Below are positions 3,176 through 41,298 of a stretch of 41,298 nt of DNA, one piece after another (the stretch's first letter is position 1; every line of letters begins with the position of its first letter). The position numbers and the translations under genes were made by a program. Origin of the DNA: Lachnospiraceae bacterium. Lineage in GTDB: Bacteria > Bacillota > Clostridia > Lachnospirales > Lachnospiraceae. The notes under the pieces were generated by a model that was given only the letters and a program-made list of their open reading frames with translations, made no database searches and was not told where the DNA came from. The DNA lies in NCBI GenBank assembly GCA_022510685.1, contig JAFLTA010000015.1, positions 1 to 41,298 on the forward strand, written 5' to 3'.

Positions 3176-3482
3176 AAAAATCTCCGTTCCGCCGCCTTCA
3201 TCGGCGGCATAAATGGCAATGAAAAAAACTGGTTTTCACATTATATTACTCCCGGTGTATAGGCTGCTTTATCTATGAATGTTACAAATAGTTCTAATAC
3301 TAATTATATAGTATTCGAGAGAAAAAACAATAAATGATGTGAAAAAAAGATGTAAAAATGGACATTTTTGTCCAATATGCACTCCGGGCTTCTGATATAC
3401 TTTCGGAGAAATAACAGAACAGAGCTTGATGGAAGGCAATGTATTCCATTGTGCTCTAAAAGAGAATGGAGGCGCATAACTT
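3176..3482. other. Divergent intergenic region between WYL regulator and AAA+ gene
   Basis: This 307-base region carries the control signals for both flanking genes. On the minus strand a TATAAT (bases 3240-3245) could be the -10 of the WYL gene, though no good -35 is seen. A GC-rich hairpin (GCCGCC 3189-3194 pairing with GGCGGC 3201-3206) lies in the WYL leader just before its ribosome site. On the plus side lies the palindrome at 3360-3373. No further ORF is supported. Confidence 0.6.
3360..3373. promoter_or_regulatory. GGACA-N4-TGTCC palindrome, copy 1 (putative operator)
   Basis: The sequence GGACATTTTTGTCC has 5-bp perfect arms, extended by a T/A pair on each side. A -10-like TATACT sits at 3396-3401, 22 bases beyond the palindrome, which puts the palindrome centre at -41.5 from the predicted start near 3408. 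The same geometry recurs at copy 3. It probably activates the AAA+/clpP operon. The WYL protein as binder is inferred from adjacency. Confidence 0.6.
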
Positions 3483-5444
3483 ATGAAGAAACTTAAAGTG
3501 TTGACACCGGATGTCAGGGAAGGGTATTTAAGAAATTCCAATATCAAAGGTGAGCATTACCGTTATCTGCACGTGGATATGAGCTACGACGACGAAACGC
3601 TGGCTCATGATGTGGGTGCAGGAGCAAAGCAGTTTGCGGAGATAAAAAAGCTAGTCAACAGAAATCATTCCAAATTTTACTTAGTTGACTGCAACAGCGT
3701 GGAGGATGGTCTGAAGGCAGTCACCTATATGGAAGCTTCTTTCATCGGAAACGACTTTTATGAAGATTATTTTGAGAATCAATCTTATATGTTTGATGAC
3801 GGAACGTATTATGGAGAAGATGAAGAAGATGATGATGATTGCGGATGGATGGAGTATGCGAATAATATTCCGGTGATTCGTTATTCAGAGCTTATGAATT
3901 ATATGAACAGAAGCGGCGTAGGTTTTCAAATAGGAAATCAGGAGTTTCTGGCAGGAAATATAGGCAATGTTTTGAAACCTTATTGGGTGGATTGTAATGA
4001 AAATTCTATCTGCTTGATATATGAACCCGTATTTTTTGGTGGTGATGACGATAGGATTTCCAATGTCATAAAATTCTTCAAAAAAAATGCCCATGTATAT
4101 CTGCTCAATGCCTATCCGCCAGAGGAAGAAAAGCCAGAAACAGAAAAGACTTCTATCGAGGAAGAGGATGATATTTTTGATTTGCCTTTTTATTCCGATT
4201 CAGATGATTTTGATATGGGGATTTCCGGTGTAGAAAGGTGCAAATTTTTAATTGAATCTAACGCAAATCAAATAGATGTGACACTGACTGCAGAGAAGAC
4301 GAAAAAGGCGGATGAATTCTATTTTAGACAGCTTTGTCAGTATCATGACTTAAAGAGAGAAAAAGGCATCCGGGTTGACAAGATTATGGAGCAGGTAAGA
4401 CGGATAGATGAAGATTTTCCATGGGGATTTTTACAGAAAATATTTAATAGAGTGCATCATATGGAGCCTGACTGCAAGACATTACGGCAAGTTCATTTTG
4501 CAGAGATGGGAATCATCAGCAAGAGCATTAAAGTTAAGGTCGCGAAAGAAAATAAGAAGAACATGAAGGAACTGATTGGGATGAAGAGTGTGAAAGAGCA
4601 GCTGAAGCAATTCATGGATACACAGAAATTTAAGAAATATTGTGTGGAGAATGGTCTTCCGAGCATGGATTATCACAATGTATTGCTGTTTTTGGGAGCA
4701 CCGGGGACTGCCAAGACCACTTGTGCCCAGACGTTGGGGGAGATGATGCTGCAGGAAAATATGCTCAAAGGAAAACGTTTTGCCAGTGTGTCGGGAGCAG
4801 AGTTAAAGGGTGCTTATGTGGGACAGACAGCACCTAAGGTTCACCGGTTGTTTGCTGAAAATGACATTATTTTTATTGATGAGGCATATTCTCTTACAGC
4901 GTCAGACAAGTCGGGAATCATGGATTCATACAGTCAGGAAGCATTGGCGCAGTTGGCAATCGAGCTGGAGCAGCATAGTTCAGATAAACTAATCATTTTT
5001 GCAGGATATGGCGGTAAGGATGTAAACAGCAAAGACAATAAGATGAAGCTGTTCTTAGAAGCGAATCCGGGTATCCGCAGCCGGATTAATGATACCATCT
5101 ACTTTCCGTCTTATAGTGGTGAGGAGATGGCTGAAATTATCAAGGGAATTATCGGTCAAAAAGGCTTGAATTTGGAAGCGGAGGAGCAGATTACAAAGAG
5201 CATCATTGCCTACTTTGATTCCAGAACAGACAAAGATGATTTTGGAAATGGAAGGGAAGCGCGTTCCTTTGTAGAGCATTGTTTTATGCAGATTGCGAGT
5301 CGTGTAATGCAGATGCCCGAGAGCAAGCGGAGCAAGAAGACGATGTGTACAATCATTCCGCAGGATATTGAGAAAACAATCGAAAAACTGAATGAGAGCA
5401 GCAAGGTGCAAGATGGCAGAAATGTTGCTTTCGGCTTAATGTAA
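3483..5444 (+). CDS. CbxX/CfqX-family AAA+ ATPase with acidic N-terminal domain
   Basis: This 653-residue protein has an AAA+ module in its C-terminal half: Walker A GAPGTAKTT (residues 405-413), Walker B IIFIDEA (D466, E467) and an arginine-finger segment NPGIRSRI, the pattern of the CbxX/CfqX group that includes SpoVK and type VII secretion EccA proteins. Residues 1-250 match nothing I recognise and contain very acidic stretches (EDEEDDDDCG, SDSDDFD). Relatives such as SpoVK are about half as long, so the N-terminal part is a large extra domain, perhaps for substrate choice. The start follows ATGGAGG with good spacing. A ClpP-type protease gene begins 14 bases after the stop. The protein ends in AFGLM, a hydrophobic tail that might dock on the protease; this is speculation. 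Confidence 0.85.
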   Translation: MKKLKVLTPDVREGYLRNSNIKGEHYRYLHVDMSYDDETLAHDVGAGAKQFAEIKKLVNRNHSKFYLVDCNSVEDGLKAVTYMEASFIGNDFYEDYFENQSYMFDDGTYYGEDEEDDDDCGWMEYANNIPVIRYSELMNYMNRSGVGFQIGNQEFLAGNIGNVLKPYWVDCNENSICLIYEPVFFGGDDDRISNVIKFFKKNAHVYLLNAYPPEEEKPETEKTSIEEEDDIFDLPFYSDSDDFDMGISGVERCKFLIESNANQIDVTLTAEKTKKADEFYFRQLCQYHDLKREKGIRVDKIMEQVRRIDEDFPWGFLQKIFNRVHHMEPDCKTLRQVHFAEMGIISKSIKVKVAKENKKNMKELIGMKSVKEQLKQFMDTQKFKKYCVENGLPSMDYHNVLLFLGAPGTAKTTCAQTLGEMMLQENMLKGKRFASVSGAELKGAYVGQTAPKVHRLFAENDIIFIDEAYSLTASDKSGIMDSYSQEALAQLAIELEQHSSDKLIIFAGYGGKDVNSKDNKMKLFLEANPGIRSRINDTIYFPSYSGEEMAEIIKGIIGQKGLNLEAEEQITKSIIAYFDSRTDKDDFGNGREARSFVEHCFMQIASRVMQMPESKRSKKTMCTIIPQDIEKTIEKLNESSKVQDGRNVAFGLM

Positions 5445-5458
5445 AGGAGGAGATGGAA

Positions 5459-6019
5459 ATGGTAATCAATCCGGCAGTTATTGACGAAATGGGAAAGACA
5501 AGCGATATTTTTTCGAGGAATTTAGATCGGAGAGTCGTGCATTTGGTAGGGGAAGTCACAGATGAAATGGCAGCTTCCATAATCGCACAGCTGCTGCATC
5601 TGGATGCTATGAGTGCAGAGGATATCCAACTGTACATCAATAGTCCCGGCGGTTCCGTGTCGGCAGGCATGGCGATTTATGATACCATGCAGCTGATCAA
5701 ATCGGACGTGGCGACCGTGTGTGTGGGAAAGGCGGCAAGCATGGGGGCGGTTCTGTTGTCCGGCGGGGCAAAAGGGAAACGTTCTATGCTTCGCCACAGT
5801 GAGGTGATGATCCATCAACCCTCCGGGGGCATGAACGGTCAGGCGACAGACATCGTAATCACGGCGGAGCATATTAAAAAAATTAAGCAGATGTTGAATG
5901 AAATACTGGCGGAAAACTGTGGCAAAGACATCAGTGAGCTGGCAGAAGATACGGAGCGGGATTTCTGGATAACCGCGGAGGAAGCTGTCGAGTATGGAAT
6001 CACCGATAAAATTTTGTAG
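5459..6019 (+). CDS. ClpP-type serine protease (accessory paralogue)
   Basis: This 186-residue protein belongs to the ClpP family, which forms tetradecameric chambers that degrade proteins fed by AAA+ unfoldases. The catalytic triad is intact: S94 in KAASMGA, H119 in MIHQPSGG and D164 in EDTERD. The Ser-His spacing of 25 equals that of E. coli ClpP. The start at 5459 is chosen because AGGAGG (5445-5450) lies 8 bases ahead, while ATG 5453 would be only 2 bases away. It is not beside clpX or tig, as housekeeping clpP usually is, but directly follows the AAA+ gene, so it is probably a dedicated partner or a second ClpP. A housekeeping copy elsewhere in the genome cannot be judged from this window. 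Confidence 0.9.
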   Translation: MVINPAVIDEMGKTSDIFSRNLDRRVVHLVGEVTDEMAASIIAQLLHLDAMSAEDIQLYINSPGGSVSAGMAIYDTMQLIKSDVATVCVGKAASMGAVLLSGGAKGKRSMLRHSEVMIHQPSGGMNGQATDIVITAEHIKKIKQMLNEILAENCGKDISELAEDTERDFWITAEEAVEYGITDKIL

Positions 6020-6076
6020 CAGCCGGTATGTTTTTCATAGCAATTACGATATACTATAGCATGGAAGGAAAAAGTT

Positions 6077-6090
6077 GGACAGATTTGTCT
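6077..6090. promoter_or_regulatory. GGACA-N4-TGTCY palindrome, copy 2 (putative operator)
   Basis: The sequence GGACAGATTTGTCT matches copies 1 and 3 except for the last base. It lies 58 bases after the clpP stop and about 74 bases before the start predicted from the promoter at 6123-6151. No -10 exists at the spacing seen for the other two copies, so its mode of action may differ or it may be decayed. Confidence 0.45.
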
Positions 6091-6122
6091 TAAAGATGAA
6101 CGGATGGGAGAGGGGGAATGTG

Positions 6123-6151
6123 TTGATGCTAAGGGGGAGATGGAGTATAAT
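6123..6151 (+). promoter_or_regulatory. Sigma-A-like promoter ahead of small ORF and addB
   Basis: TTGATG (6123-6128) and a consensus TATAAT (6146-6151) are separated by 17 bases. It would drive the small ORF at 6228 and then addB/addA. Confidence 0.6.
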
Positions 6152-6227
6152 GGGTGACAGGGGGATTTGTTGTCCGGATAGGAAGTTAGAGCGCAGAATG
6201 GGGTAGACGATAAAAGGAGGAATGGTC

Positions 6228-6347
6228 ATGACGCATAAGGAACTTGTGGCTGGGTTAAATTGGCAAATTGAAGATAATAGCGATGAATTAAAGTTAGAGA
6301 AGTGTGAGTCATTTTTATTGGATGTGATGATAAAAGTGTTACTGTAG
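6228..6347 (+). CDS. Small ORF of 39 residues, possibly the start of a frameshifted gene
   Basis: An AGGAGG at 6215-6220 stands 7 bases before ATG 6228, followed by 39 codons and TAG. The peptide begins MTHKELVAGLNWQIEDNSDE and is not recognised. Another frame becomes open just before the stop and runs from about 6332 to 6506 with plausible coding content (DKSVTVVDLKLNVGVAS, then YIGIPYKSN). This suggests that one longer gene was split by a small insertion or deletion near 6325-6335. It could also be a genuine short peptide translated ahead of addB. No function is assigned. Confidence 0.45.
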   Translation: MTHKELVAGLNWQIEDNSDELKLEKCESFLLDVMIKVLL

Positions 6348-6506
6348 TGGATTTGAAACTGAATGTAGGCGTGGCTAGCGAAAGTTATATAGGCATACCA
6401 TATAAATCAAACAGAGGGAGAAAAAATAGTGGTGACGACATAGGTATACGAACAGTAAGAAGACAGGATGAAATCCATCACAGGAAGGAGGAGGCATGGA
6501 CTGGTT
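6332..6506 (+). pseudogene. Possible out-of-frame remainder of the small ORF
   Basis: In the frame of GAT AAA AGT GTT, codons are open until TAG at 6504-6506, inside the addB start. The product (SVTVVDLKLNVGVASESY and onward) reads like real protein, but no start or ribosome site is seen in this frame. It is best explained as the 3' part of a gene broken near 6330. Confidence is low because the stretch is short. Confidence 0.3.
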
Positions 6507-9327
6507 AGAGAAGAAGGGCGATAAGCTTCTGCTGTGTGAGAATATCAAAGAAGCAAATCGGTGGATGCGAAGGATTAACAAAACGAGTAAAATATACACG
6601 CAGGGAGTGACTGCGTGTACGATATCGGACTTGGCAAAAAACATTGTTGAGATGGCAGTGGCTTTTTCGACTTCCCTGGATGAACTTCGTGAGGTGAAAG
6701 TACTCGATGATGCAGCGGCATCTCGTATTATGCTTGAAGTGTTGCAGGACCGTAATGTCCGTGCTGAATGTGAGGGGAAGGGAGTAACCTTCATTCCGGA
6801 AGCATCCATTGACAATGCGCTTGCGTTGAAAATTATACAGGCTTTCCACAAACTGAGGCTCGGCGAGAGGAAAGCGGAGTCAGACTCCGCAGGACGAGAA
6901 GATGGGTACAGACGGCTACTCGGAATTTTGTTGGAAAAATACGAAGACAAATTAAAAGATGCCGGCTATTATGACAGATGTATGATTTTGAAAAAAGCAA
7001 TAGAATGCTTAGAAAACGCAGAGTACATAAAGGACTACCAAGCGCAGTATTCCAGGATGGATGTTGCCTGTCTGATGCCATGGGAGCGGACATATGAGGA
7101 GAACCGGTTTTTGAAAAAAATAGAAAGCATATCATCTGTACAGGAAATGACGATGATAGACATGCGCGTTTTTGACAAAGGGAAGAAGGTTTCGTATGAA
7201 TTTGTAAAGGCATATGGTGCTGCAAATGAGATTCGTCATATAGCGGATGAGATAGAGGGGCAGAAAATCCCCTATGGTGACGTAACGGTTTTATATTCCT
7301 CACAGGAGCATGACTCTTTTATTCGTACCGTTTTTGGAGAGCGTGGAATTCCCTACTGTATGCCGGCGGGAAGATTGGCGTTAGACAACGATTACATTGA
7401 CCTTCTCTACCGGTTGCTAGACTGGATGCAGACAGGAGGTTTTCAGAGTGCAGAAGGGTTTCTCAAACGCTCCGGATGCCTCTCTCTGTGGGAGGAGGCA
7501 GACGAGGAAACAGGGCAAAGCGAGGAAGTGAAGCAAAACGAGGGTGAAAAGCAGAGCGCGGAACCGAAGCAGAACAAAAAGAAAGGTCGATCGCTGTTGC
7601 CGGAGGCACTACGGGACATACGGGATATTCATCAGAAGTTTTCGACCGGGGGAGAGGTGACCTTTTATAGTTTGTTAAAGGAGTTGGAGGATTATTTAAA
7701 AAAATACTCCCATGTTCCTAATCCGAACTGGAAAACGGCTAAGGAGTGCATAAACAGCATATATGACAGATACGAAGGGGCGGCGCCGGTGTCTTTTAAG
7801 GATGCAGCAGCACGCTTGCAGGAAGAATTGACAACGATACGGACTGCAGAGGAGGAAAGGCAGGATGCGGTATGTGTCATTCCGATTCAAAAGAGGAGTG
7901 TGCTAGAGCGCGGACATAATTATATCGTGGGATTATCGGATTATCATTTCCGGGAAACACTGTTGGATTCTGCCATTCTTTCGGATGAGCAGTTGAAAAA
8001 TCAGGTTAAAGTGGACGCTTCCTATTCGGCAGATGACAGAGATAAGGATTATGTGGAACTGGAATTGGATGCAGAGAGGAGAAAGCAGGAGCATCTGACA
8101 GACACCATGAATACTCTTTTTGAGGGCAGAATCGTCCTGTCGTATAGTTCCTATGACTCCGTCAATCAGAAAAAAATATCCCCTTCCCTTTACTATCTGG
8201 ACATTATGAAGGAAAAAGAGGGAAAGGAGAAACCGGTAGGAGGGTATTCGCTTCTTTCATACAATTATGTGGATGATGCAGCGTTGTTTCCGAATACGGC
8301 AGAGGACAATCAGGAGGAAGATGGGGCAGGCTCCGCGAAAGTTCCGGTTTTCAGTCAGTCCGCCCTATATACGATGTTAGTTTGTTCCCGCAAGTATTTT
8401 TATAAGAAAGTCTTACATATTCCGGATGAGGAAGAAAAAGACAGAAATGCAGGAATATGGCTGGAGCCTCTTGTTAAGGGGACTCTTTTTCACAGTGTAT
8501 TAGAGAAGTACATAAACAGTGAGTTAAAGGACGTGGAAATACCGGCAGGGGAGTTAAATCAGGTAGTTTTCGATCGTATTTTTTCTGAAACAATTGAAGG
8601 TACCAGGGAGGAGGTGCCCTGTGAGTCTGAAGTTGTGTATGAGATGGAAAAACAGTCGTATCAGGAAATTTTAGAACGATTTTTGACAGAGCTGCATATA
8701 GAACTTTCAAAGAGTGAGCAGAAATGGAAAGTGTATCAGTGTGAGATGAAGATTGGCCTGAACGAAAAGCGAAAGCACCGTCCGGAGGATGAGTACAGGG
8801 AAGAGTACGAGTTTGAATACGAAGATGAGCCGGGGGAGGTGCATAAAGAGAAACTTACAGTGGCTTATCACGGAGAATTGGACAGAGTGGATTTTTATGT
8901 TGACAGCAAGGGTATCACACACTTTCGGATTGTAGACTATAAAACGGGAAAACAGAATAGTCATAAACAGAAACTGGATTGTGATATCTGGCCGCAGCAT
9001 ATCATATATGCCCGCCTGTTGGAAAATAAAGTCAAAGATTGTGTTGTGGATGAGTTTGTATATGAATACCTTTTCGAGAAGGCACCGGAAAAAAGAAAAA
9101 TTGTATATACAAAGGAACAATTGGAAGGGCTTCCTGTATATGTGAAGGAAGTGTTAATCAGGACTCTCGCAAAACACGATTACGCGTGGCGTCCTCCGAT
9201 TAACAGGGACAAAACGGACAAAGAAGAAGCTAAAAAAGTTGACGGTATACTAAAAGAACATGAAAAGACATGTGAATACTGTTCTTACCAGGATATGTGC
9301 CGGGAAAGGATGGGTAGAAAATTATGA
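6496..9327 (+). CDS. addB: AddB-like PD-(D/E)XK nuclease, short form
   Basis: This 943-residue protein resembles AddB, the partner of AddA in the helicase-nuclease that processes DNA double-strand ends for recombination. The C-terminal RecB-type nuclease is visible as GELD (D796) and IVDYKTGK (D814, K816). The four cysteines of the AddB iron-sulfur cluster are present: C630 in LVCSRKYF, then C926, C929 and C935 near the C-terminus, with the typical CxxC-x5-C spacing. Bacillus subtilis AddB has 1166 residues; this protein is about 220 shorter, and no Walker A is visible at its N-terminus, so the helicase-like part is probably inactive. A GGAAGGAGGAGG site precedes ATG 6496. Its stop overlaps the addA start as ATGA, indicating coupled translation. 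Confidence 0.8.
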   Translation: MDWLEKKGDKLLLCENIKEANRWMRRINKTSKIYTQGVTACTISDLAKNIVEMAVAFSTSLDELREVKVLDDAAASRIMLEVLQDRNVRAECEGKGVTFIPEASIDNALALKIIQAFHKLRLGERKAESDSAGREDGYRRLLGILLEKYEDKLKDAGYYDRCMILKKAIECLENAEYIKDYQAQYSRMDVACLMPWERTYEENRFLKKIESISSVQEMTMIDMRVFDKGKKVSYEFVKAYGAANEIRHIADEIEGQKIPYGDVTVLYSSQEHDSFIRTVFGERGIPYCMPAGRLALDNDYIDLLYRLLDWMQTGGFQSAEGFLKRSGCLSLWEEADEETGQSEEVKQNEGEKQSAEPKQNKKKGRSLLPEALRDIRDIHQKFSTGGEVTFYSLLKELEDYLKKYSHVPNPNWKTAKECINSIYDRYEGAAPVSFKDAAARLQEELTTIRTAEEERQDAVCVIPIQKRSVLERGHNYIVGLSDYHFRETLLDSAILSDEQLKNQVKVDASYSADDRDKDYVELELDAERRKQEHLTDTMNTLFEGRIVLSYSSYDSVNQKKISPSLYYLDIMKEKEGKEKPVGGYSLLSYNYVDDAALFPNTAEDNQEEDGAGSAKVPVFSQSALYTMLVCSRKYFYKKVLHIPDEEEKDRNAGIWLEPLVKGTLFHSVLEKYINSELKDVEIPAGELNQVVFDRIFSETIEGTREEVPCESEVVYEMEKQSYQEILERFLTELHIELSKSEQKWKVYQCEMKIGLNEKRKHRPEDEYREEYEFEYEDEPGEVHKEKLTVAYHGELDRVDFYVDSKGITHFRIVDYKTGKQNSHKQKLDCDIWPQHIIYARLLENKVKDCVVDEFVYEYLFEKAPEKRKIVYTKEQLEGLPVYVKEVLIRTLAKHDYAWRPPINRDKTDKEEAKKVDGILKEHEKTCEYCSYQDMCRERMGRKL

Positions 9328-12300
9328 TGAGAACTGACTTGGATGAACAAAGAAAACGTGAACGGATAAAGACACCTACAGATAAAAGTGTGTTTGTTGA
9401 AGCAGGTGCTGGTGCCGGAAAGACGACATTGATAGTATCCCGTCTGATTAACCAGCTAAAACAGGGAATTCTGCCGGAGCATATTGTTGTTATCACCTTT
9501 ACAAATAAAGCTACAGAGGAACTGCAGGAGCGCATAATCAAAGAATTAAAGGATGCCGGCAGGAAAGCGGGATTAAGTGAAGAGGAGCGTAAAAATCTTA
9601 ACTATGCACAACAGAATATGGACAGACTCCACATATCCACCATACACAGTTTTTGTTTTAAGCTGCTCAAAGAAAATGCATTGACAGCCGGTGTTCCGGT
9701 GGATATCGAGATGATGGAGGAGCCGGAGAGATTAGCTGAGCAGGAAGTCCTGTTTGAGGACTGGTATGCCAGGCTGGATAGAAGCATCATGAATCAGTTA
9801 TACGCTCTTTTTCCGGGCAGTAATAGCTATATGGCAAGAAATTGTTTAAAGGATGCGTATGCCAAAATAGCAACGCGTCCGCAAGAGGTAGAAGTGTACC
9901 GGGAGAATACGGACTTTGATAAGTATGAAGATATGATTGAGCAGGGGAATCAGCTGCTGAAGGATTTTGCCGGAGAAATTTATCGAATACTTCCCGACAA
10001 AAATAAGCGGAATATGGAGTCTGTTTTTCATGACTTGCTGAATGAGGAGGAGAAGGCGGTCAACAAACCGTTCCGCACAGCAATTGAGGAGCTATATCGA
10101 TTTGATGGGAATCAGGTAGACATGCCGGAGGAAGCTATATGGGATATTAATAAACTGTTAAAAAGCGTGGAGAAAGCCTTCAACAAGCAAAACGGGCATT
10201 ATGAAAAGGACATTGCACAGGGGTTAAACGAGGCGTTATCGAAGTCAGAAATATATAAAAACCTGGATGAGTACATAAAGCAATACGAGTTTTATTGTAC
10301 GGATTTGATTACATCACTGGCACAGGATGCACGGGAATATTACAGAAAGCACCGGAATGTTAGAACCGTCTCCAATGATTCTCTTTTGGAGCAGGCAAGG
10401 GATCTGGTCTGCAGACATTCGGAGCTGGCGCGTCAGTTGGCGAAGAAGTACCGGCATCTTTATATTGATGAATTTCAAGATGTGGACCATATGCAGGCAG
10501 AGCTGGCTTTGTGCTTCAAGGAGAATGGAAGCCGACTTTTTCTGGTAGGGGATCCCAAACAGTCTATATACCGTTTCCGGGGTGCGGAACCAAAATTGTT
10601 TGACAAAATTAAAAAGGACATGACAGAGGATAAGGACTCCGAGGTTTTTGAGTTGGATGATAATTACCGTTCTTCCGGCAAGGTGATTGACTGGGTAAAT
10701 ACTGTTTTCAAGCAACGTTTTACCGATATAAAATATCGTGATATGAAAGTCGGCGGCACAAAGAACATCTCGGGTCATGCTGACCGTTTGCTGGATGGAG
10801 TCTATAAGTATGACAAGGATAACCGGTTGGAAATCGTCGAGGAAGATGCGGAACAACTGGCAGATGTCATCGACAGACTGGTATCCGGTGAGTATTGTAT
10901 TTTCGATGGGGAAAACGCTCCACGTCCCGTCCGTTACAAAGATTTTTTGGTTCTCACATGGACGACAAAAAATATACCTGCCTATACGCAGGCGTTTAAG
11001 GATAAGGAAATTCCATTTCTCGTGGATGGGAAGGAACCTCTGTCAGTCTATGTGGTTTTGAATCGTTTTCGTCTGTTGTACCGCTATCTGGCAAGATATG
11101 AAAAAAAGTATATAGAAGGTGCCATTGAAGCTTTGTCGCAGGATGATACAGAGGTGTTGGAAAGAAAGAGTGCCGTGGACTTTCTTCGTACTTGGAAAAA
11201 GGAGACGAAAGAGCTGGATGGAAAAGGGAAAGCCGGCTATCTGTCAGGAAAAACAGAATATCTGATTCCAAGAGGGAGAGTGCTTAAGGAACAGGAGATG
11301 AACTCCATTCAGACTAAACTGGTACAGATGGTGGAGAAGGTGTGTGCAACAGCTACGTCCGCTAATGCCTACCTCCTTGCAGAAGAATTTGACCGATATG
11401 TCAGTACAGAATTGGAACATGAACTCGTTCTGGAAGAAAATGCCGATGCCGTGCGAATCATGAATATGCATAAGGCGAAGGGACTGGAAGCGGGTGTGGT
11501 GATTTTGGCTGACAGGGTGGCGAGTAAAAAAATGTCAGAGCAAACATACATGGATAGTGACACCGCTGTAACCCCACGGAAATATACATTATATACAGAT
11601 TATCGGTACGGACAGTTTAACGGTGTTATTTCCGGACTCTCTCAAATGCCGGAGAAGGTGGCGGCCGGTGAGGAGGAGAAAGAACAGGAAGAGGTAAGAA
11701 AACAGTATGTCGCTGCCACCAGAGCAAAACAGGCACTGATTATTATGAATCCCATACGTGGTAGCCGGGAAAAAGGAAAGAAAGACTATTTTTCGGATTA
11801 TATGGATGCGGTCAAAAATTCTCTTGCCGATAAGCTGAGAAAAAACGGGGATATGATGGAAGATGGTGTTGAAGACGGCAATGGTGAAAGCGGCGAAAAT
11901 TCTGTCAGGAGAGATGCTCAAAAGAAATGTTTCCAAAAGAAGGAGCGGACAGAGGAAGCGGCACAAAGGGAAGAACAGTATATAAGCATTACGCCGAGCG
12001 GTCTTGAAGTCGGGGGAAACAGTGCGAACGCAGATGAAACAAAGAGCGAAGGTGACGCAAAGAGCGAAGTACGTCCGAAAGGAAATATCTTCGGTACGGT
12101 CATGCACCGCTGCTTTGAACTCATGATGATTCAGATTATGAGCCCGGATGCGGAAAACCGGAGAAAGAACAAAAAATTAGCAGACATTTTTGCAGGAACG
12201 GGACAGATATCCCGGATTATTCGGCAGGCTCTTGTGGAAAATTATAGCGATATTAAGAGCAAATACGAGGCACCGGATGAAAGCGGAAATCCAAGATACA

Positions 12301-12740
12301 AAAAAGAAATGTTAAAGTATCAGGAGCATCTGGAAATATTCCTCAATGATTTTTTGGATGATAAAGATGTCGCAGATATTATTTCCCGGACGGAAGAATA
12401 TTACACAGAATATCCGTTTTCTTTTGACGCATCGAAACGCGATGCTAAGGATATGTTTGAGAAACTGGCACCATATCTGGAAAAGAAAAAGATAGAAATA
12501 GGTGATGAGCAGCGTGTATGGGTCAATGGAACGATGGATTTGGTGTTGCACCTGCAGGATGGAAACGTTATCATATTGGATTATAAATCGGATACAAAAG
12601 GCGATAATGTATCCATAGAAAAGTTTGACGAGTATTTAAACAAATATAATGGGCAACTGGAGTTATATAAATATGCTGCCACGCGCATATTTGATGTGAC
12701 GATGGATAAAGTAGAGACGATTCTATATCATTTATACTAG
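9324..12740 (+). CDS. addA: AddA-like UvrD-family helicase with nuclease domain
   Basis: This 1138-residue superfamily 1A helicase shows Walker A in EAGAGAGKTT (K33), motif Ia FTNKATEEL, motif II YIDEFQD, motif III VGDPKQSIYRFRGA and motif VI YVAATRAKQAL. The C-terminal end has a RecB-like nuclease motif, GTMDLVLHLQDGNVIILDYK. Both parts match AddA, the 3'-5' translocating helicase and 3'-strand nuclease of AddAB. A charged, low-complexity linker (about residues 835-905) separates helicase and nuclease. The protein is somewhat shorter than B. subtilis AddA (1232). The ATG at 9324 overlaps the addB stop; ATG 9327 is equally possible. With the short AddB it may form the organism's AddAB or a second, diverged complex; that cannot be settled here. 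Confidence 0.85.
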   Translation: MMRTDLDEQRKRERIKTPTDKSVFVEAGAGAGKTTLIVSRLINQLKQGILPEHIVVITFTNKATEELQERIIKELKDAGRKAGLSEEERKNLNYAQQNMDRLHISTIHSFCFKLLKENALTAGVPVDIEMMEEPERLAEQEVLFEDWYARLDRSIMNQLYALFPGSNSYMARNCLKDAYAKIATRPQEVEVYRENTDFDKYEDMIEQGNQLLKDFAGEIYRILPDKNKRNMESVFHDLLNEEEKAVNKPFRTAIEELYRFDGNQVDMPEEAIWDINKLLKSVEKAFNKQNGHYEKDIAQGLNEALSKSEIYKNLDEYIKQYEFYCTDLITSLAQDAREYYRKHRNVRTVSNDSLLEQARDLVCRHSELARQLAKKYRHLYIDEFQDVDHMQAELALCFKENGSRLFLVGDPKQSIYRFRGAEPKLFDKIKKDMTEDKDSEVFELDDNYRSSGKVIDWVNTVFKQRFTDIKYRDMKVGGTKNISGHADRLLDGVYKYDKDNRLEIVEEDAEQLADVIDRLVSGEYCIFDGENAPRPVRYKDFLVLTWTTKNIPAYTQAFKDKEIPFLVDGKEPLSVYVVLNRFRLLYRYLARYEKKYIEGAIEALSQDDTEVLERKSAVDFLRTWKKETKELDGKGKAGYLSGKTEYLIPRGRVLKEQEMNSIQTKLVQMVEKVCATATSANAYLLAEEFDRYVSTELEHELVLEENADAVRIMNMHKAKGLEAGVVILADRVASKKMSEQTYMDSDTAVTPRKYTLYTDYRYGQFNGVISGLSQMPEKVAAGEEEKEQEEVRKQYVAATRAKQALIIMNPIRGSREKGKKDYFSDYMDAVKNSLADKLRKNGDMMEDGVEDGNGESGENSVRRDAQKKCFQKKERTEEAAQREEQYISITPSGLEVGGNSANADETKSEGDAKSEVRPKGNIFGTVMHRCFELMMIQIMSPDAENRRKNKKLADIFAGTGQISRIIRQALVENYSDIKSKYEAPDESGNPRYKKEMLKYQEHLEIFLNDFLDDKDVADIISRTEEYYTEYPFSFDASKRDAKDMFEKLAPYLEKKKIEIGDEQRVWVNGTMDLVLHLQDGNVIILDYKSDTKGDNVSIEKFDEYLNKYNGQLELYKYAATRIFDVTMDKVETILYHLY

Positions 12741-12754
12741 TATGTGGTAAAATC

Positions 12755-12768
12755 GGACAAATTTGTCC
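12755..12768. promoter_or_regulatory. GGACA-N4-TGTCC palindrome, copy 3 (putative operator)
   Basis: GGACAAATTTGTCC is a perfect 14-bp palindrome and the best of three copies. A -10-like TATCAT lies at 12791-12796, again 22 bases beyond, so the palindrome centre is at -41.5 from the predicted start near 12803. It would control the three-gene set starting at 12844. Confidence 0.65.
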
Positions 12769-12843
12769 TGTTAATCCTCCTTCTTTTTGCTATCATGATT
12801 GACGTAACAAAGATTGATAAGCAAAAGGAAGGAGGATTTTTTT

Positions 12844-15285: not shown

Positions 15286-16281
15286 GTGAAAGAAACCAGA
15301 GAGCGGGAAATATTGGGAATATTACCGGGAAAAATCAGACGAATCATGGGGCGTCTGTCCATTGATTGGGAACGGCTGCAGGAAATTCGTCTGCGCATCA
15401 GTGAACCCGTTATACTACGCTATGGCGGGAAAGAATACTTTTTGGCACAGGAGGGATTTTTGAGCAGAGAGCCGGATGTGGCAGTACATATACACCGGGA
15501 GGAGTTAAAAGAAGCGATGGAATATATCAGCAACTATTCCCGCTATGCCTATGAGGAGGAAATGAGGCAGGGATTTCTTACGATACAGGGAGGTCATCGT
15601 ATTGGACTAGCCGGTCGGGTTATCCGCGAAGACAATCATATTAAAGGGATGCAGCATATTTCCTGTATGAATGTTCGGCTTGCCCATGAGGTAATCGGCT
15701 GTGGAAAGAAAGTGCTTCCTTATCTTCTGGATGGAAAAAGCATACATAATACGTTGATTATATCGCCGCCATGTGGGGGAAAAACAACACTATTGCGTGA
15801 CATTATTCGTCTCCTTTCGGAGGGGGTGGTACAGTACAAAGAAAGTTCTGTGTCCGGATTTACGGTGGGAGTGGTAGATGAACGCTCAGAAATCGGTTCC
15901 TGTTATCAGGGGATACCCCAAAATGATTTGGGGCGTCGTACTGATATTTTAGATGCCTGTCCTAAAGTAGAAGGGATATTTTTGTTAGTGCGCTCTATGT
16001 CACCACAAGTAATCGCTGTGGATGAAATCGGTTCTGTCGCTGATGTGGAAGCCATGGAGTATGCCATGAACAGCGGTGTGAAACTTCTTGCAACGGTACA
16101 TGGAGCCACCATGGAGGAAATACGGAAAAAACCGGGATTGGCGAGATTAGTAAAAGAAAAAGTTTTTGAGAGATATATATTACTGGGAGGGAAAGTAGGG
16201 CAAGTCCGGGCGGTGTTTGATGGGAGAGGAACAGTTGTCACAGCTCTCAGAGAACGGGAAGGAGCGCGGGAAGTATGTTGA
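15286..16281 (+). CDS. spoIIIAA: Stage III sporulation protein AA, ATPase
   Basis: SpoIIIAA is the cytoplasmic secretion-type ATPase of the SpoIIIA-SpoIIQ channel that links mother cell and forespore. This 331-residue copy has a P-loop PPCGGKTT (161-168), an aspartate-rich Walker B in VIAVDEIG, and the usual ATVHG segment after it. The P-loop has Ser at the first Gly position and CG where relatives often have GC, but the GKT core is intact. It starts with GTG 15286 after GGAGGAAAGG and overlaps spoIIIAB by 7 bases. It is the first gene of the eight-gene operon behind the sigma-E-like promoter. Confidence 0.95.
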   Translation: MKETREREILGILPGKIRRIMGRLSIDWERLQEIRLRISEPVILRYGGKEYFLAQEGFLSREPDVAVHIHREELKEAMEYISNYSRYAYEEEMRQGFLTIQGGHRIGLAGRVIREDNHIKGMQHISCMNVRLAHEVIGCGKKVLPYLLDGKSIHNTLIISPPCGGKTTLLRDIIRLLSEGVVQYKESSVSGFTVGVVDERSEIGSCYQGIPQNDLGRRTDILDACPKVEGIFLLVRSMSPQVIAVDEIGSVADVEAMEYAMNSGVKLLATVHGATMEEIRKKPGLARLVKEKVFERYILLGGKVGQVRAVFDGRGTVVTALREREGAREVC

Positions 16282-23021: not shown

Positions 23022-23926
23022 GGCAGCTAAACAGTGAAGAATTTGAAAAAGAGCTTTCAGAGCGTGTGGAGAAGATAGAATTAATACTACAAGAGGCATT
23101 GCCGGCACATATTACTATGCAAAAAACGATACGGGATGCCATGGAATACAGCTTGATGGCAGGGGGAAAGAGGCTCCGCCCGCTGTTGCTTTCTGAGACA
23201 TATCGGCTGTTTGGGGGAGAGGATATGCAGCAAATTCATCCGTTCATGGCGGCTCTGGAAATGATTCATACGTACTCTCTGGTTCACGATGATTTGCCTG
23301 CAATGGATAATGATGAGTATCGCAGGGGCAGAAAAACCACTCACATTGTTTTCGGGGAGGATATGGGAATTTTGGCAGGCGATGCCTTGTTAAACTATGC
23401 GTATGAGACGGCTGTAAAGGGTGCAGCTGCCTGTGGGCAACCGGAGCGCGGATTGAAGGCGTTGGAGATTTTGTCGGAGAAAGCCGGTGTCTATGGAATG
23501 GTGGGAGGTCAGGTGGTTGACGTAGAACTGACCGGCAAACCATTGGAGGAGGAGCAGTTGGATTTCATTTACCGCTTAAAAACAGGAGCGCTTTTAGAGG
23601 CGGCGTTTATGTCAGGAGCGGCATTGGCGGGAGCCGGTGATGAAGAATTACAGCGTATGGAGAGGATTGGCTGTCTGGTAGGACAAGCTTTTCAGATACA
23701 GGATGACATTTTGGATATCGTGAGTACCACAGAGGAACTCGGTAAGCCGGTGGGCAGTGATGTCCGCAATGAAAAGACCACATATGTATCACTACATGGA
23801 ATGGACGCGGCGAAAAAAGCCGTGGAGGAGTATTCCCAAGAGGCATTGGAGCTTTTGGACTCTGTGCGAGGTGAAAATCCGTTTCTTGCCACATTGATTA
23901 CCGCATTGATACACAGAAAAAAATGA
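23018..23926 (+). CDS. ispA: Short-chain polyprenyl (farnesyl-type) diphosphate synthase
   Basis: This enzyme condenses dimethylallyl and isopentenyl diphosphate to geranyl and farnesyl diphosphate. The 302-residue protein has the first Asp-rich motif DDLPAMD (91-97), with the two-residue insertion typical of bacterial short-chain enzymes, the basic GGKRLRP segment (49-55) and the second Asp-rich motif in QIQDDILD. It overlaps xseB by 4 bases and is followed by dxs, the usual isoprenoid arrangement in Clostridia. Exact chain length is inferred from the motif. Confidence 0.93.
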   Translation: MRQLNSEEFEKELSERVEKIELILQEALPAHITMQKTIRDAMEYSLMAGGKRLRPLLLSETYRLFGGEDMQQIHPFMAALEMIHTYSLVHDDLPAMDNDEYRRGRKTTHIVFGEDMGILAGDALLNYAYETAVKGAAACGQPERGLKALEILSEKAGVYGMVGGQVVDVELTGKPLEEEQLDFIYRLKTGALLEAAFMSGAALAGAGDEELQRMERIGCLVGQAFQIQDDILDIVSTTEELGKPVGSDVRNEKTTYVSLHGMDAAKKAVEEYSQEALELLDSVRGENPFLATLITALIHRKK

Positions 23927-36695: not shown

Positions 36696-37021
36696 TTTTG
36701 AATTCCTCCTTATCTTCCTTCTATTTATCATGTGCCGGAAAAGGAAATTTATCCTTAAAAATCATGATTTCGTTTCTTGTTTTGCCTAATGGCGGTGTTA
36801 TTCCGGTTGTCAAATGCTGTCATATATAGAGAAGAAAGATAAAAAAGAAACGCCTTTCAAAAAGGTTTGCAGATAGCAGTCGAAATAAGACGTATCACTT
36901 TTCTTGAGGGGGAAGTAAATTGAATTTATAATCAGTAAAACGGCAATGGTGTCAGCATACGGGCATAGCTGTTTGCCAGAAATCAATATAAGTGCACACG
37001 TATGCAGAAATGAGGGAAGAC
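36696..37021. other. Divergent intergenic region between spoIVB and spo0A
   Basis: About 326 bases carry the signals of both genes. The spo0A-side promoter is listed separately. Two sequences similar to the Spo0A box TGTCGAA occur: TGTCAAA at 36808-36814 and AGTCGAA at 36878-36884. They could mediate spo0A autoregulation, but 7-base matches are weak evidence. No clear sigma-G/F promoter for spoIVB was identified. Confidence 0.4.
36904..36932 (+). promoter_or_regulatory. Sigma-A-like promoter of spo0A
   Basis: TTGAGG (36904-36909) and consensus TATAAT (36927-36932) are 17 bases apart, predicting a start near 36939 and a leader of about 83 bases. Confidence 0.6.
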
Positions 37022-37813
37022 ATGGAGAAAGTCAAAGTGTTAGTAGTAGACGACAACCGGAGAATTGTAAGTTTGTTAAAAAATGCACTGGAACGGGAGC
37101 CGGAACTGGAAGTAGTCGGTACGGCTTCTGATGGAGAAGAAGCGTTACAGTTAATTCATCTGAAACGACCGGATGTAGTGCTGTTAGATTTGATTATGCC
37201 TAAAATTGACGGATTGGGGGTGATGGAGCGGATGCAGCGGGAAGATTTTCCGATACATCCCCAGGTAATCGTGGTGTCTGCTGTCAGTCAGGAAAATGTA
37301 ACGGAGCATGCTTTTGATTTGGGAGCAGCTTACTATATTTTAAAGCCTTTTGACACTCGTGTGGTAATGGCACGGGTCAAGTCTGTAGGGCTGACAGGAG
37401 AGCGGGGAGCAAAGGTGATTACTACGGTGTTCGAGAATAAAAACCGGCTGCAGAAAAAATCCATGGAGGCAGAAGTGACACAGACCATCCATGAAATCGG
37501 TGTGCCGGCACATATTAAAGGATACCAATATCTGCGGGACGCCATCATGATGTCTGTGAGTGATACGGAAATGTTAGGCTCCATCACGAAACGTCTGTAT
37601 CCCAATATTGCCAAAAAGCACCAGACGACCCCCAGCCGCGTGGAGCGTGCGATACGTCATGCAATTGAAGTGGCGTGGAGCAGGGGGAAAATGGATACAA
37701 TTGAAGAACTGTTTGGGTATACAGTCAGTGACAGAAAAGGAAAGCCTACGAATTCGGAGTTTATCGCTCTAATAGCAGATAAAATCCGTCTCGAATACAA
37801 GATGCACGCATAG
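37022..37813 (+). CDS. spo0A: Sporulation master regulator Spo0A
   Basis: Spo0A is the response regulator that commits the cell to sporulation when phosphorylated. This 263-residue protein has an N-terminal receiver domain with the acidic pair D10/D11, phospho-acceptor D56 in [10 protein letters not shown] and the KPFD lysine, and a C-terminal DNA-binding domain with the nearly invariant [20 protein letters not shown] recognition segment. ATG 37022 follows GAGGGAAGAC and gives the same D56 numbering as Bacillus, so the longer reading from 36992 is rejected. Next come short tandem repeats and then glgA. Confidence 0.97.
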
Positions 37814-40497: not shown

Positions 40498-41298
40498 CTA
40501 CTGAAGCTGCATAATTACCAAATGTGCTGATGCCGGTTTGCTACCTCCCGCAAAGGGAGTGATTGTGAGTGCCGTCGAATTGCAGGCAGGATTTCTCACT
40601 GTCAGGATGGAATTGGCAGTGCATGTTGTCACAATGGCGATACCTACAATTTGGTCAGTACAAGATGCACGACCAACGACAGTATAGTCTATCTCGTCAT
40701 TATTCAGAGTCAGTACCAATTGTCCAGCTCCCGTAATACTTACTTGAAATTGTACCAGATACGTGCCAATTTGTGTTAGATTGAAAGACTCCCCGTTGAT
40801 GGAAGTAATATCAGTACCACTGTTTGCTGCTTCATTCGGAAAACATATATCGCAACCCGGTGCAACTGTGGTAGCATTATCCGGAGGCATCAGGGCATAA
40901 AAATCTGCATAGTTTGCGATTCCACCTGCCTTGCCTTTAGGTCCGACGGGACCCGTATCTCCCTTGGGACCTTTGGGTCCTGTATCTCCCTTAGGACCTT
41001 TGGGTCCCATGGGTCCTGGTTCGCCCTGACACCCCATAGGACCAGCGGGACCCGGTTCTCCTTTGGGTCCCTTAGGTCCGGTAGCCCCTGTTTTTCCCAT
41101 AGGACCAGCGGGACCCGGCTCCCCTTGGCAGCCCTTAGGACCAGTAGGACCTGTATCCCCCTTAGGACCTTTGGGACCCATGGGACCCGGCTCCCCTTGG
41201 CATCCCATAGGACCAGCGGGACCCGGCTCCCCTTGGCAGCCCATAGGACCAGTAGGACCCGTATCTCCCTTAGGACCTTTGGGACCCATGGGACCCGG
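40498..41298 (-). CDS. BclA-like collagen-repeat protein, N-terminal end outside the window
   Basis: The frame is open to the right edge, so the true start is not included and the ATG at 41289 is an internal GPM triplet. About 41 Gly-X-Y triplets are visible (GPKGPKGDTGPTGPMGCQ pattern), including four GCQ triplets whose cysteines could link chains. After the collagen part comes a globular C-terminal domain of about 140 residues (NYADFYALMPPDN, then FNLTQIGTYLVQFQVSITGA and LVLTLNNDEIDYTVVG) that resembles the TNF/C1q-like head of BclA exosporium proteins. In spore formers such proteins form hair-like outer-coat fibres. In this window it is convergent with the pseudouridine synthase gene. Confidence 0.9.
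   Translation of the reverse strand, partial: PGPMGPKGPKGDTGPTGPMGCQGEPGPAGPMGCQGEPGPMGPKGPKGDTGPTGPKGCQGEPGPAGPMGKTGATGPKGPKGEPGPAGPMGCQGEPGPMGPKGPKGDTGPKGPKGDTGPVGPKGKAGGIANYADFYALMPPDNATTVAPGCDICFPNEAANSGTDITSINGESFNLTQIGTYLVQFQVSITGAGQLVLTLNNDEIDYTVVGRASCTDQIVGIAIVTTCTANSILTVRNPACNSTALTITPFAGGSKPASAHLVIMQLQ

Follow-up and report, generated by a model that had tools for sequence, protein, structure and literature searches.

Here, we analyse a window of 41,298 nucleotides (the whole stretch of DNA, contig JAFLTA010000015.1 of a Lachnospiraceae bacterium) in which the gene of a WYL-domain regulator lies divergently beside a row of genes for an AAA+ ATPase, a ClpP-like protease, an AddB-like nuclease, an AddA-like helicase, a protein bearing the motif FETNSS and a radical-SAM-like protein (Table 1). 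A palindrome, GGACA-N4-TGTCC, occurs three times along this cassette, and a preliminary description of the same DNA had proposed from it a local regulon controlled by the WYL protein. The underlying observation is confirmed and the interpretation partly supported. Judged from sequence, a WYL-controlled local regulon is the best reading of the regulatory element, to which we add promoter-overlapping hairpins at copy 3 and at four sites of relatives, conservation across genomes, and the finding that the cassette AddA is a second, divergent copy.

Spaced palindromes in the window and its relatives

The three palindromes lie where they had been placed, the first and third being exact and the second carrying one mismatch. 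The accompanying remark that no other copy was noticed needs amending: the listed copies are real, and two further one-mismatch matches (6747-6760 and 23752-23765) lie inside open reading frames (ORFs), outside the refined consensus given below. With up to one mismatch the window holds five matches, a number reached in none of 100 shuffles (mean 1.04, maximum 4). Also as described, a -10-like hexamer begins exactly 22 bases beyond copies 1 and 3 (TATACT and TATCAT), giving both the geometry of a class II-like site in a local regulon.

Across the assembly (102 contigs totalling 2,770,786 bases, 90.65% complete), the bare palindrome is no commoner than its backward control: three exact places against three, the third (C23:8116) within an ORF, and 64 places against 84 with up to one mismatch. 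A genome-wide regulon was therefore rejected. The scan for commonness of the motif was more favourable to the composite of palindrome and hexamer. Palindrome-N22-TANNNT occurs without mismatch only at copies 1 and 3, and one mismatch adds only their reverse readings; with up to two mismatches, the 34 forward and 21 reverse places are below control (44 and 29). The refined composite RGACAN4TGTCY-N22-YANNNT gives three forward and no reverse places (control 0 and 0), two in the WYL cluster and one inside an ORF (C25:16000).

The WYL protein is rare. Counting the window's own genome (G000), its subfamily was matched in 1 of 99, 6 of 392, 14 of 397, 4 of 79 and 2 of 391 genomes in overlapping search sets; among the 99 near relatives the window's genome stands alone, and only this genome, Butyrivibrio sp. 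Su6 (G142; cluster contig NZ_FNUR01000007.1, here C6) and G773, of the same genus as Su6, match below 1e-40. The Su6 protein (6.1e-42, among 392 genomes of the order) is 32% identical to that of the window, and the G773 protein (9.4e-48 by profile search, among 79 genomes of the Su6 genus) 26%. In Su6, the WYL, AAA+, AddB and AddA genes form one row on the same strand; in G773, the WYL gene is divergent from the AAA+ gene, which is followed by a 1653-amino-acid protein holding both the PD-(D/E)XK and the UvrD parts. The AAA+ relatives are 37% identical in Su6 and 28%, over the motor, in G773, and an AAA+ alignment search gave matches in 4 of 397 genomes. Conservation of the palindrome upstream of the same genes in relatives, raised as a check in the preliminary description, was found: in both Su6 and G773 a spaced site precedes the AAA+ gene, with the WYL gene beside it, and the AAA+ gene is a shared candidate target in three genomes.

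Two parts of the earlier proposal were not supported. As a promoter element of AddB/AddA, copy 2 is not borne out: the bases at offset 22 read GGGGAA, not a -10, and in Su6 and G773 AddB follows ~50 bases after AAA+ with no second palindrome site between. Nor is radical chemistry supported as a core part, as the FETNSS and radical-SAM-like proteins had no match in the Su6 or G773 cluster regions by blast comparison, and relatives of the pair occur in phages. The core of the cassette is AAA+ with AddB/AddA; the remaining genes vary by genome. Copy 2 may well be bound by the regulator, though without a promoter, since it fits the palindrome fully and its 14-mer is identical, letter for letter, to the AAA+ operator of Su6.

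Over eight sites in the three genomes, the consensus is RGACA-RATY-TGTCY, the RATY centre being present at all but copy 1, whose TTTT differs from it at two positions. Every site of Su6 (three) and G773 (two) lies 22 bases from a -10-like hexamer, and, read the way the cluster runs, seven of the eight show YANNNT at offset 22; any other offset from 5 to 49 gives at most two. The -35 at a 17-base spacing is poor, with 0-3 of 6 matches to TTGACA (by eye). RGACAN4TGTCY occurs three times in the window, three times in 40 kb of Su6 and once in 40 kb of G773, the means of 100 first-order Markov simulations being 0.12, 0.08 and 0.20, so that the single exact G773 site is no excess by itself. A fair test of the spacing leaves out the window sites, because they suggested it, and the G773 site found by eye: the four sites that a palindrome-only scan returns all fit, against a base rate of 0.036 per position. 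Among other 5-N4-5 palindromes of this DNA, 11 of 334 readings have the spacing. Genome-wide in Su6, the refined composite is confined to three places, one of them read both ways, in a 20-kb stretch (control: 0 forward, 1 reverse); GACAN4TGTC alone occurs at five, and the two without R...Y are also without the 22-base spacing. The Su6 site at the 3' end of the WYL gene is coding (...DELDRFV-stop); dismissing it as chance on that ground was dropped, given its exact 22-base spacing to TATCCT and its place before the AAA+ gene.

Table 1. Features of the window (plain coordinates) and spaced operator sites of Su6 and G773 (contig:position); aa, amino acids
Feature	Position	Strand	Remarks
WYL-domain regulator, 422 aa	1907-3175	-	Divergent from AAA+ gene; Pfam WYL 1.7e-10; candidate palindrome binder
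Palindrome copy 1	3360-3373	+	GGACATTTTTGTCC; exact GGACA-N4-TGTCC; candidate operator, centre near -41.5 of AAA+/clpP promoter
-10-like hexamer TATACT	3396-3401	+	22 bases past copy 1
AAA+ ATPase with AAA_lid_6, 653 aa	3483-5444	+	CbbX/SpoVK-like motor, own N-terminal region
ClpP-like protease, 188 aa	5453-6019	+	Pfam 1.1e-71
Palindrome copy 2	6077-6090	+	GGACAGATTTGTCT; one mismatch to GGACA-N4-TGTCC; fits refined consensus RGACAN4TGTCY
AddB-like protein with PD-(D/E)XK nuclease domain, 943 aa	6496-9327	+	Relative in Su6; partial match to G773 fused protein
Divergent AddA-like UvrD-family helicase, 1138 aa	9324-12740	+	Second AddA copy of genome
Palindrome copy 3	12755-12768	+	GGACAAATTTGTCC; exact; candidate operator, centre near -41.5 of FETNSS/radical SAM unit
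Terminator-like hairpin	12773-12838	+	23-pair stem spanning -10; 3' arm holds AGGAGG ribosome site
-10-like hexamer TATCAT	12791-12796	+	22 bases past copy 3
T run	12837-12843	+	End of copy-3 hairpin
FETNSS protein, 174 aa	12844-13368	+	N-terminus MKRQIRRSVFETNSS
Radical-SAM-like Fe-S protein, 315 aa	13384-14331	+	PHROG 16999 'Fe-S oxidoreductase' 1.9e-36
Third gene of copy-3 unit, 281 aa	14270-15115	+	No family found in searches made
Su6 site before AAA+	C6:45795		Overlaps WYL gene end; 22 bases to -10-like TATCCT
Su6 site	C6:36380		Before unit of zinc-ribbon, ClpX-type zinc finger, HD/dGTPase-like, McrB-like and McrC-like genes
Su6 site	C6:25998		Before 462-aa gene, no family found
G773 site	C26:44070		After PLD/helicase gene, before short ORF
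G773 site with one mismatch	C26:45950		Between WYL and AAA+ genes; found by eye

Predicted hairpins over the candidate promoters

Copy 3 is followed by a terminator-like hairpin across its -10, and the 110-base stretch folds at -38.7 kcal/mol (z -6.74; 0 of 200 shuffles). At the three Su6 sites and at G773 C26:44070, the 5' arm of a hairpin starts within or directly after the -10-like hexamer. When the fold starts at the assumed +1 rather than at the palindrome, the energy changes from -32.2 to -0.7 kcal/mol at copy 3, and from -15.1 to -3.0, -20.2 to -5.9, -20.6 to -6.2 and -21.1 to -7.3 kcal/mol at the other four (the last over a longer stretch, its U run being interrupted). The form of an intrinsic terminator, a stable hairpin and then a U run, is present at copy 3 and the three Su6 sites. 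Strong hairpins accompany all five spaced sites behind a co-directional gene and neither of the two behind a divergent gene (copy 1 and G773 C26:45950); copy 2, which follows the co-directional clpP, lacks one. Most simply, the folding would mean that the hairpin insulates promoter units from read-through.

Candidate activation by the WYL protein

From the sites, their spacing, conservation and synteny, and the hairpins obtained by folding, we infer a binder, its mode of action, its signal and its function. The neighbouring WYL regulator probably turns the cassette on, given the same switch in two distant relatives and the fixed promoter distance. It would be a transcriptional activator of the DriD/SiwR kind with the palindrome as operator, its dimer binding RGACA-RATY-TGTCY centred near -41.5, in place of a -35 element, and recruiting RNA polymerase to promoters with a recognisable -10 and no good -35; a repair or defence cassette and plug-in genes would thereby be switched on. 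One promoter would drive the AAA+/ClpP genes and, by proximity, the divergent AddB/AddA nuclease-helicase, and another the FETNSS/radical SAM unit. Where a promoter stands behind a gene of the same strand, read-through RNA from upstream would fold the hairpin over the -10 and start and should stop, and promoter-born RNA without the 5' arm of the hairpin would pass. With the hairpin stopping read-through and the promoter needing WYL, each unit would be silent unless the WYL protein acts; overlap of promoter and terminator would explain independent switching of units packed on one strand. If DriD and SiwR are a guide, the trigger may be single-stranded DNA (ssDNA) that arises from damage or from DNA invading the cell, and the cassette would respond by processing DNA ends and unfolding proteins.

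The comparison with known WYL systems draws on the available excerpts of their reports. DriD of Caulobacter, an ssDNA-sensing activator, uses sites equally distant from weak -10s and overlapping poor -35s, and activates a divergent operon (PMC12340889). The window system shares with it a WYL protein, a fixed distance between site and -10, poor -35s, a divergent operon and a DNA-damage theme; of the eight sites, seven keep this constant distance from the -10, with a poor -35 beneath them (judged by eye). The sites of DriD, in those excerpts, have their centre on the -35 and act at several promoters, whereas window-type sites are centred near -41.5, belong to one cluster and have a hairpin over most promoters. 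SiwR of Mycobacterium smegmatis, which binds ssDNA, is likewise described as a WYL activator of adjacent genes, under genotoxic stress; it differs in its targets, which are DinB/YfiT-like genes, and in its site at the -26 region. In a low-confidence model of the window protein (mean predicted local distance difference test (pLDDT) 51.9), the order of the predicted elements (N-terminal DNA-binding domain, helical linker, WYL, C-terminal domain) would suit a DriD/SiwR-like regulator. Its WYL domain scores 41.2 bits against a Pfam cut-off of 21.8, and no solved relative was found by sequence up to E 1.

That the WYL protein is instead a repressor, blocking polymerase until a signal removes it, is unlikely. 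BrxR (PMC9122601) and CapW (PMC9122588) work in this fashion in the excerpts, repressing defence genes (BREX, CBASS and others) through inverted repeats or palindromes; WYL regulators often adjoin defence genes, as about half of BrxR-family homologues do (PMC9122601), and the window regulator resembles both in adjoining defence-like genes and in its palindromic site. A repressor would also suit G782, a genome with the same AAA+ family, where the palindrome covers the -35 region and stops 12 bases short of a TATAAT, and copy 2, which lies downstream of a TATACT near 6050 (by eye). The described CapW sites, however, overlap the -10 (PMC9122588), whereas here 22 bases separate the palindrome from the -10-like hexamer at seven of eight sites, and these, centred near -41.5 without a good -35 beneath, leave little to block. 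BrxR and CapW, the defence-adjoining WYL regulators compared, are both repressors as described, and the one proposed here would fall on the activator side; with a candidate operator, a promoter geometry and a target conserved between two genera obtained from sequence alone, its binding and activation are directly testable.

A regulator encoded elsewhere could bind the palindrome, the WYL gene being a mere neighbour, which we consider rather improbable. Further DNA-binding genes do lie nearby, such as the NrtR-like gene at 987-1913, and Su6 has three one-mismatch places of the first composite outside its cluster. Against this, the refined composite falls in the WYL cluster at three of three Su6 places and two of three in the window genome (the third being inside an ORF), a clustering that argues against a global regulator, and by blast comparison no regulator other than WYL has matches in all three cluster regions; the response-regulator match between G773 and the window concerns the Spo0A-like gene (36992), a long way from the cassette. 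LexA was set aside as the binder, the LexA box of Gram-positives having the spacing GAAC-N4-GTTC versus GGAC-N6-GTCC here.

An element acting in RNA, with the palindrome as a stem-loop upstream of a terminator and antitermination controlled by a protein or ligand, would account for the hairpin after five of the seven spaced sites and for an outer palindrome pair that is G-C, A-U or G-U at seven of eight. It is very improbable: the outer pair is A-C at G773 C26:44070 and an inner pair broken at C26:45950, two spaced sites (copy 1 and C26:45950) are without such a hairpin, palindrome and terminator stem do not overlap, and the distance between palindrome and hairpin varies (~5 bases at copy 3, ~25-28 in Su6 and G773), whereas that to the -10-like hexamer is constant. 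Chance pairing of short palindromes with AT-rich -10-like words, in keeping with the control-level count of the bare palindrome, has next to nothing left for it, the refined palindromes being above simulation in the window and Su6 regions and all four palindrome-only sites having the predicted spacing.

Several points weigh against activation by the WYL protein from these sites. The AlphaFold model of the protein is poor (mean pLDDT as above), and the DriD site centre, as described in the excerpts, is on the -35, nearer the start than here. The 22-base geometry is limited to three genomes; of seven genomes inspected for the AAA+ family, four have the palindrome and three the geometry (the G447 contigs end too soon). 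The palindrome is absent from G573, which has divergent WYL and AAA+ genes, and from the AAA+ locus of G681, and in G782, with two WYL-type genes, GGACAAATTTGTCA stands before those genes with its TATAAT at 12, not 22, bases. Copy 2, which fits the palindrome and stands behind a co-directional gene, breaks the rules of spacing and hairpin alike; a weak stem of 7 pairs crosses the -10 of copy 1, with no T run; the U run of the hairpin at G773 C26:44070 is interrupted; and the first gene downstream of Su6 C6:36380 begins nearly 400 bases away. A -10-like word is likelier in AT-rich flanks than the base rate suggests, the Su6 sites were already known when the consensus letters were refined, and the composite search had been the first to show one of them. 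In Su6, the earlier composite GGACAN4TGTCC-N22-TANNNT has four one-mismatch places, one in the cluster (the others, C5:61793, C12:203894 and C22:14806, are outside the refined consensus), and with up to two mismatches 37 and 40, below control (98 and 90). Both the RNA and the protein starts are assumptions; in Su6 and G773, the longest ORF of the AAA+ gene opens before the -10-like hexamer, and we placed the protein start after it.

More tentatively, WYL, a CbbX-like AAA+ (with ClpP) and divergent AddB/AddA might together be an undescribed mobile module for defence or DNA-end response. WYL would sense DNA ends or ssDNA made in an attack, and foreign genes would join the regulon behind a portable operator, -10 and read-through-only terminator: FETNSS/radical SAM in the window, McrBC-like and dGTPase-like genes in Su6, and a small membrane-type ORF in G773. 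No description of a cassette of WYL, AAA+ and AddB/AddA was found in the literature searched (one paper collection). PADLOC reported a dGTPase (8.5e-70) and a restriction-type AAA among the neighbours in Su6 and ZacB/ZacC-like parts in G773; such neighbouring genes do not show defence by the cassette itself.

Cassette proteins, phage relatives and neighbouring genes

The window AAA+ protein shares AAA plus AAA_lid_6 with CbbX/SpoVK/EccA-type motors and differs from them in scoring far below all three NCBIfam cut-offs, in its large N-terminal region and in its pairing with clpP, which recurs in G447, where a clpP-like ORF (cut by the contig end) lies 3' of both AAA+ relatives. IGF-type motifs dock ClpP, and the C-terminal tail of the AAA+ protein may do so: [FIY]-G-[FL] stands near the C-terminus in six of eight compared AAA+ proteins (FGL, YGF, FGF, FGF, IGF, IGF). 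The two G447 copies, upstream of a clpP-like ORF, have ISL at this place.

Like AddAB, the Gram-positive RecBCD analogue, the cassette sets a PD-(D/E)XK subunit beside a UvrD-type helicase subunit. Unlike it, the cassette AddA stays below the TIGR02785 cut-off of 707.65 (best piece 171 bits, whole protein 227.3), each of the three genomes encodes a further, canonical AddA elsewhere that exceeds the curated cut-off (1112.6 bits for that of the window genome, at its C6:55092), and G773 fuses both parts in one protein. PADLOC single-protein scans of eight window proteins matched WYL to a CRISPR-associated model, AAA+ weakly to TRIP13/IetA/DolB, AddB weakly to Cas4, and AddA to GajB and RTasHel helicase models (best 25 of 47 matches); the other scanned proteins gave no match, and no BREX or CBASS model was among the matches listed for the eight (for AddA, the best 25 of 47).

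The FETNSS proteins (MKxQIRxxxFETNSSSxH...) adjoin a radical-SAM-like gene in the window, in three viral contigs (L023, L024, L025) and in Prevotella phage Lak-A2 (L123), and may be substrates of the radical-SAM-like enzyme. Each viral contig has two FETNSS genes, and the translation of Lak-A2 five motif-bearing ORFs. The radical-SAM-like protein, which had no Pfam match, has a 71% identical relative in a viral contig and, among the matches listed, relatives of 48.5-50% in Lak phages. For the FETNSS protein, tblastn in phages gave no match, though the motif is present in the Lak-A2 translation; among the 99 relatives it was found in the window genome only, and the word FETNSS was absent from the literature searched.

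Related-locus searches of viral contigs with the WYL or the AAA+ protein, and of genome contigs with the WYL protein, gave nothing useful. RGACAN4TGTCY was not seen around the distant WYL matches of the 392- and 397-genome searches, in the stretches scanned, and tblastn of the AAA+ protein against plasmids returned 267 records, all short of 80% query coverage, the best 15 matching mostly the motor. In G573, a different 5-N4-5 palindrome, GGTAAATTTTTACC, lies between the WYL and AAA+ genes (L068 ~6782), with a TATACT 12 bases on toward the WYL gene, which parallels the TATAAT at 12 bases in G782. The short ORF after G773 C26:44070 (L107 ~4235), spotted by eye, has ~60 codons and a hydrophobic stretch. 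The Su6 cluster lies between the two copies of a 270-bp direct repeat of 96% identity (C6:23708-23977 and 49415-49684, 25.7 kb apart; L062 and L026), as if an island had been inserted or duplicated. In the window, the cassette adjoins core sporulation genes (Spore_III_AA, 15286-16281; Spo0A, 36992-37813); a 306-amino-acid protein with ten DUF4116 stretches lies at the window start (38-958), and internal DNA repeats occupy the right end (40938-41298).

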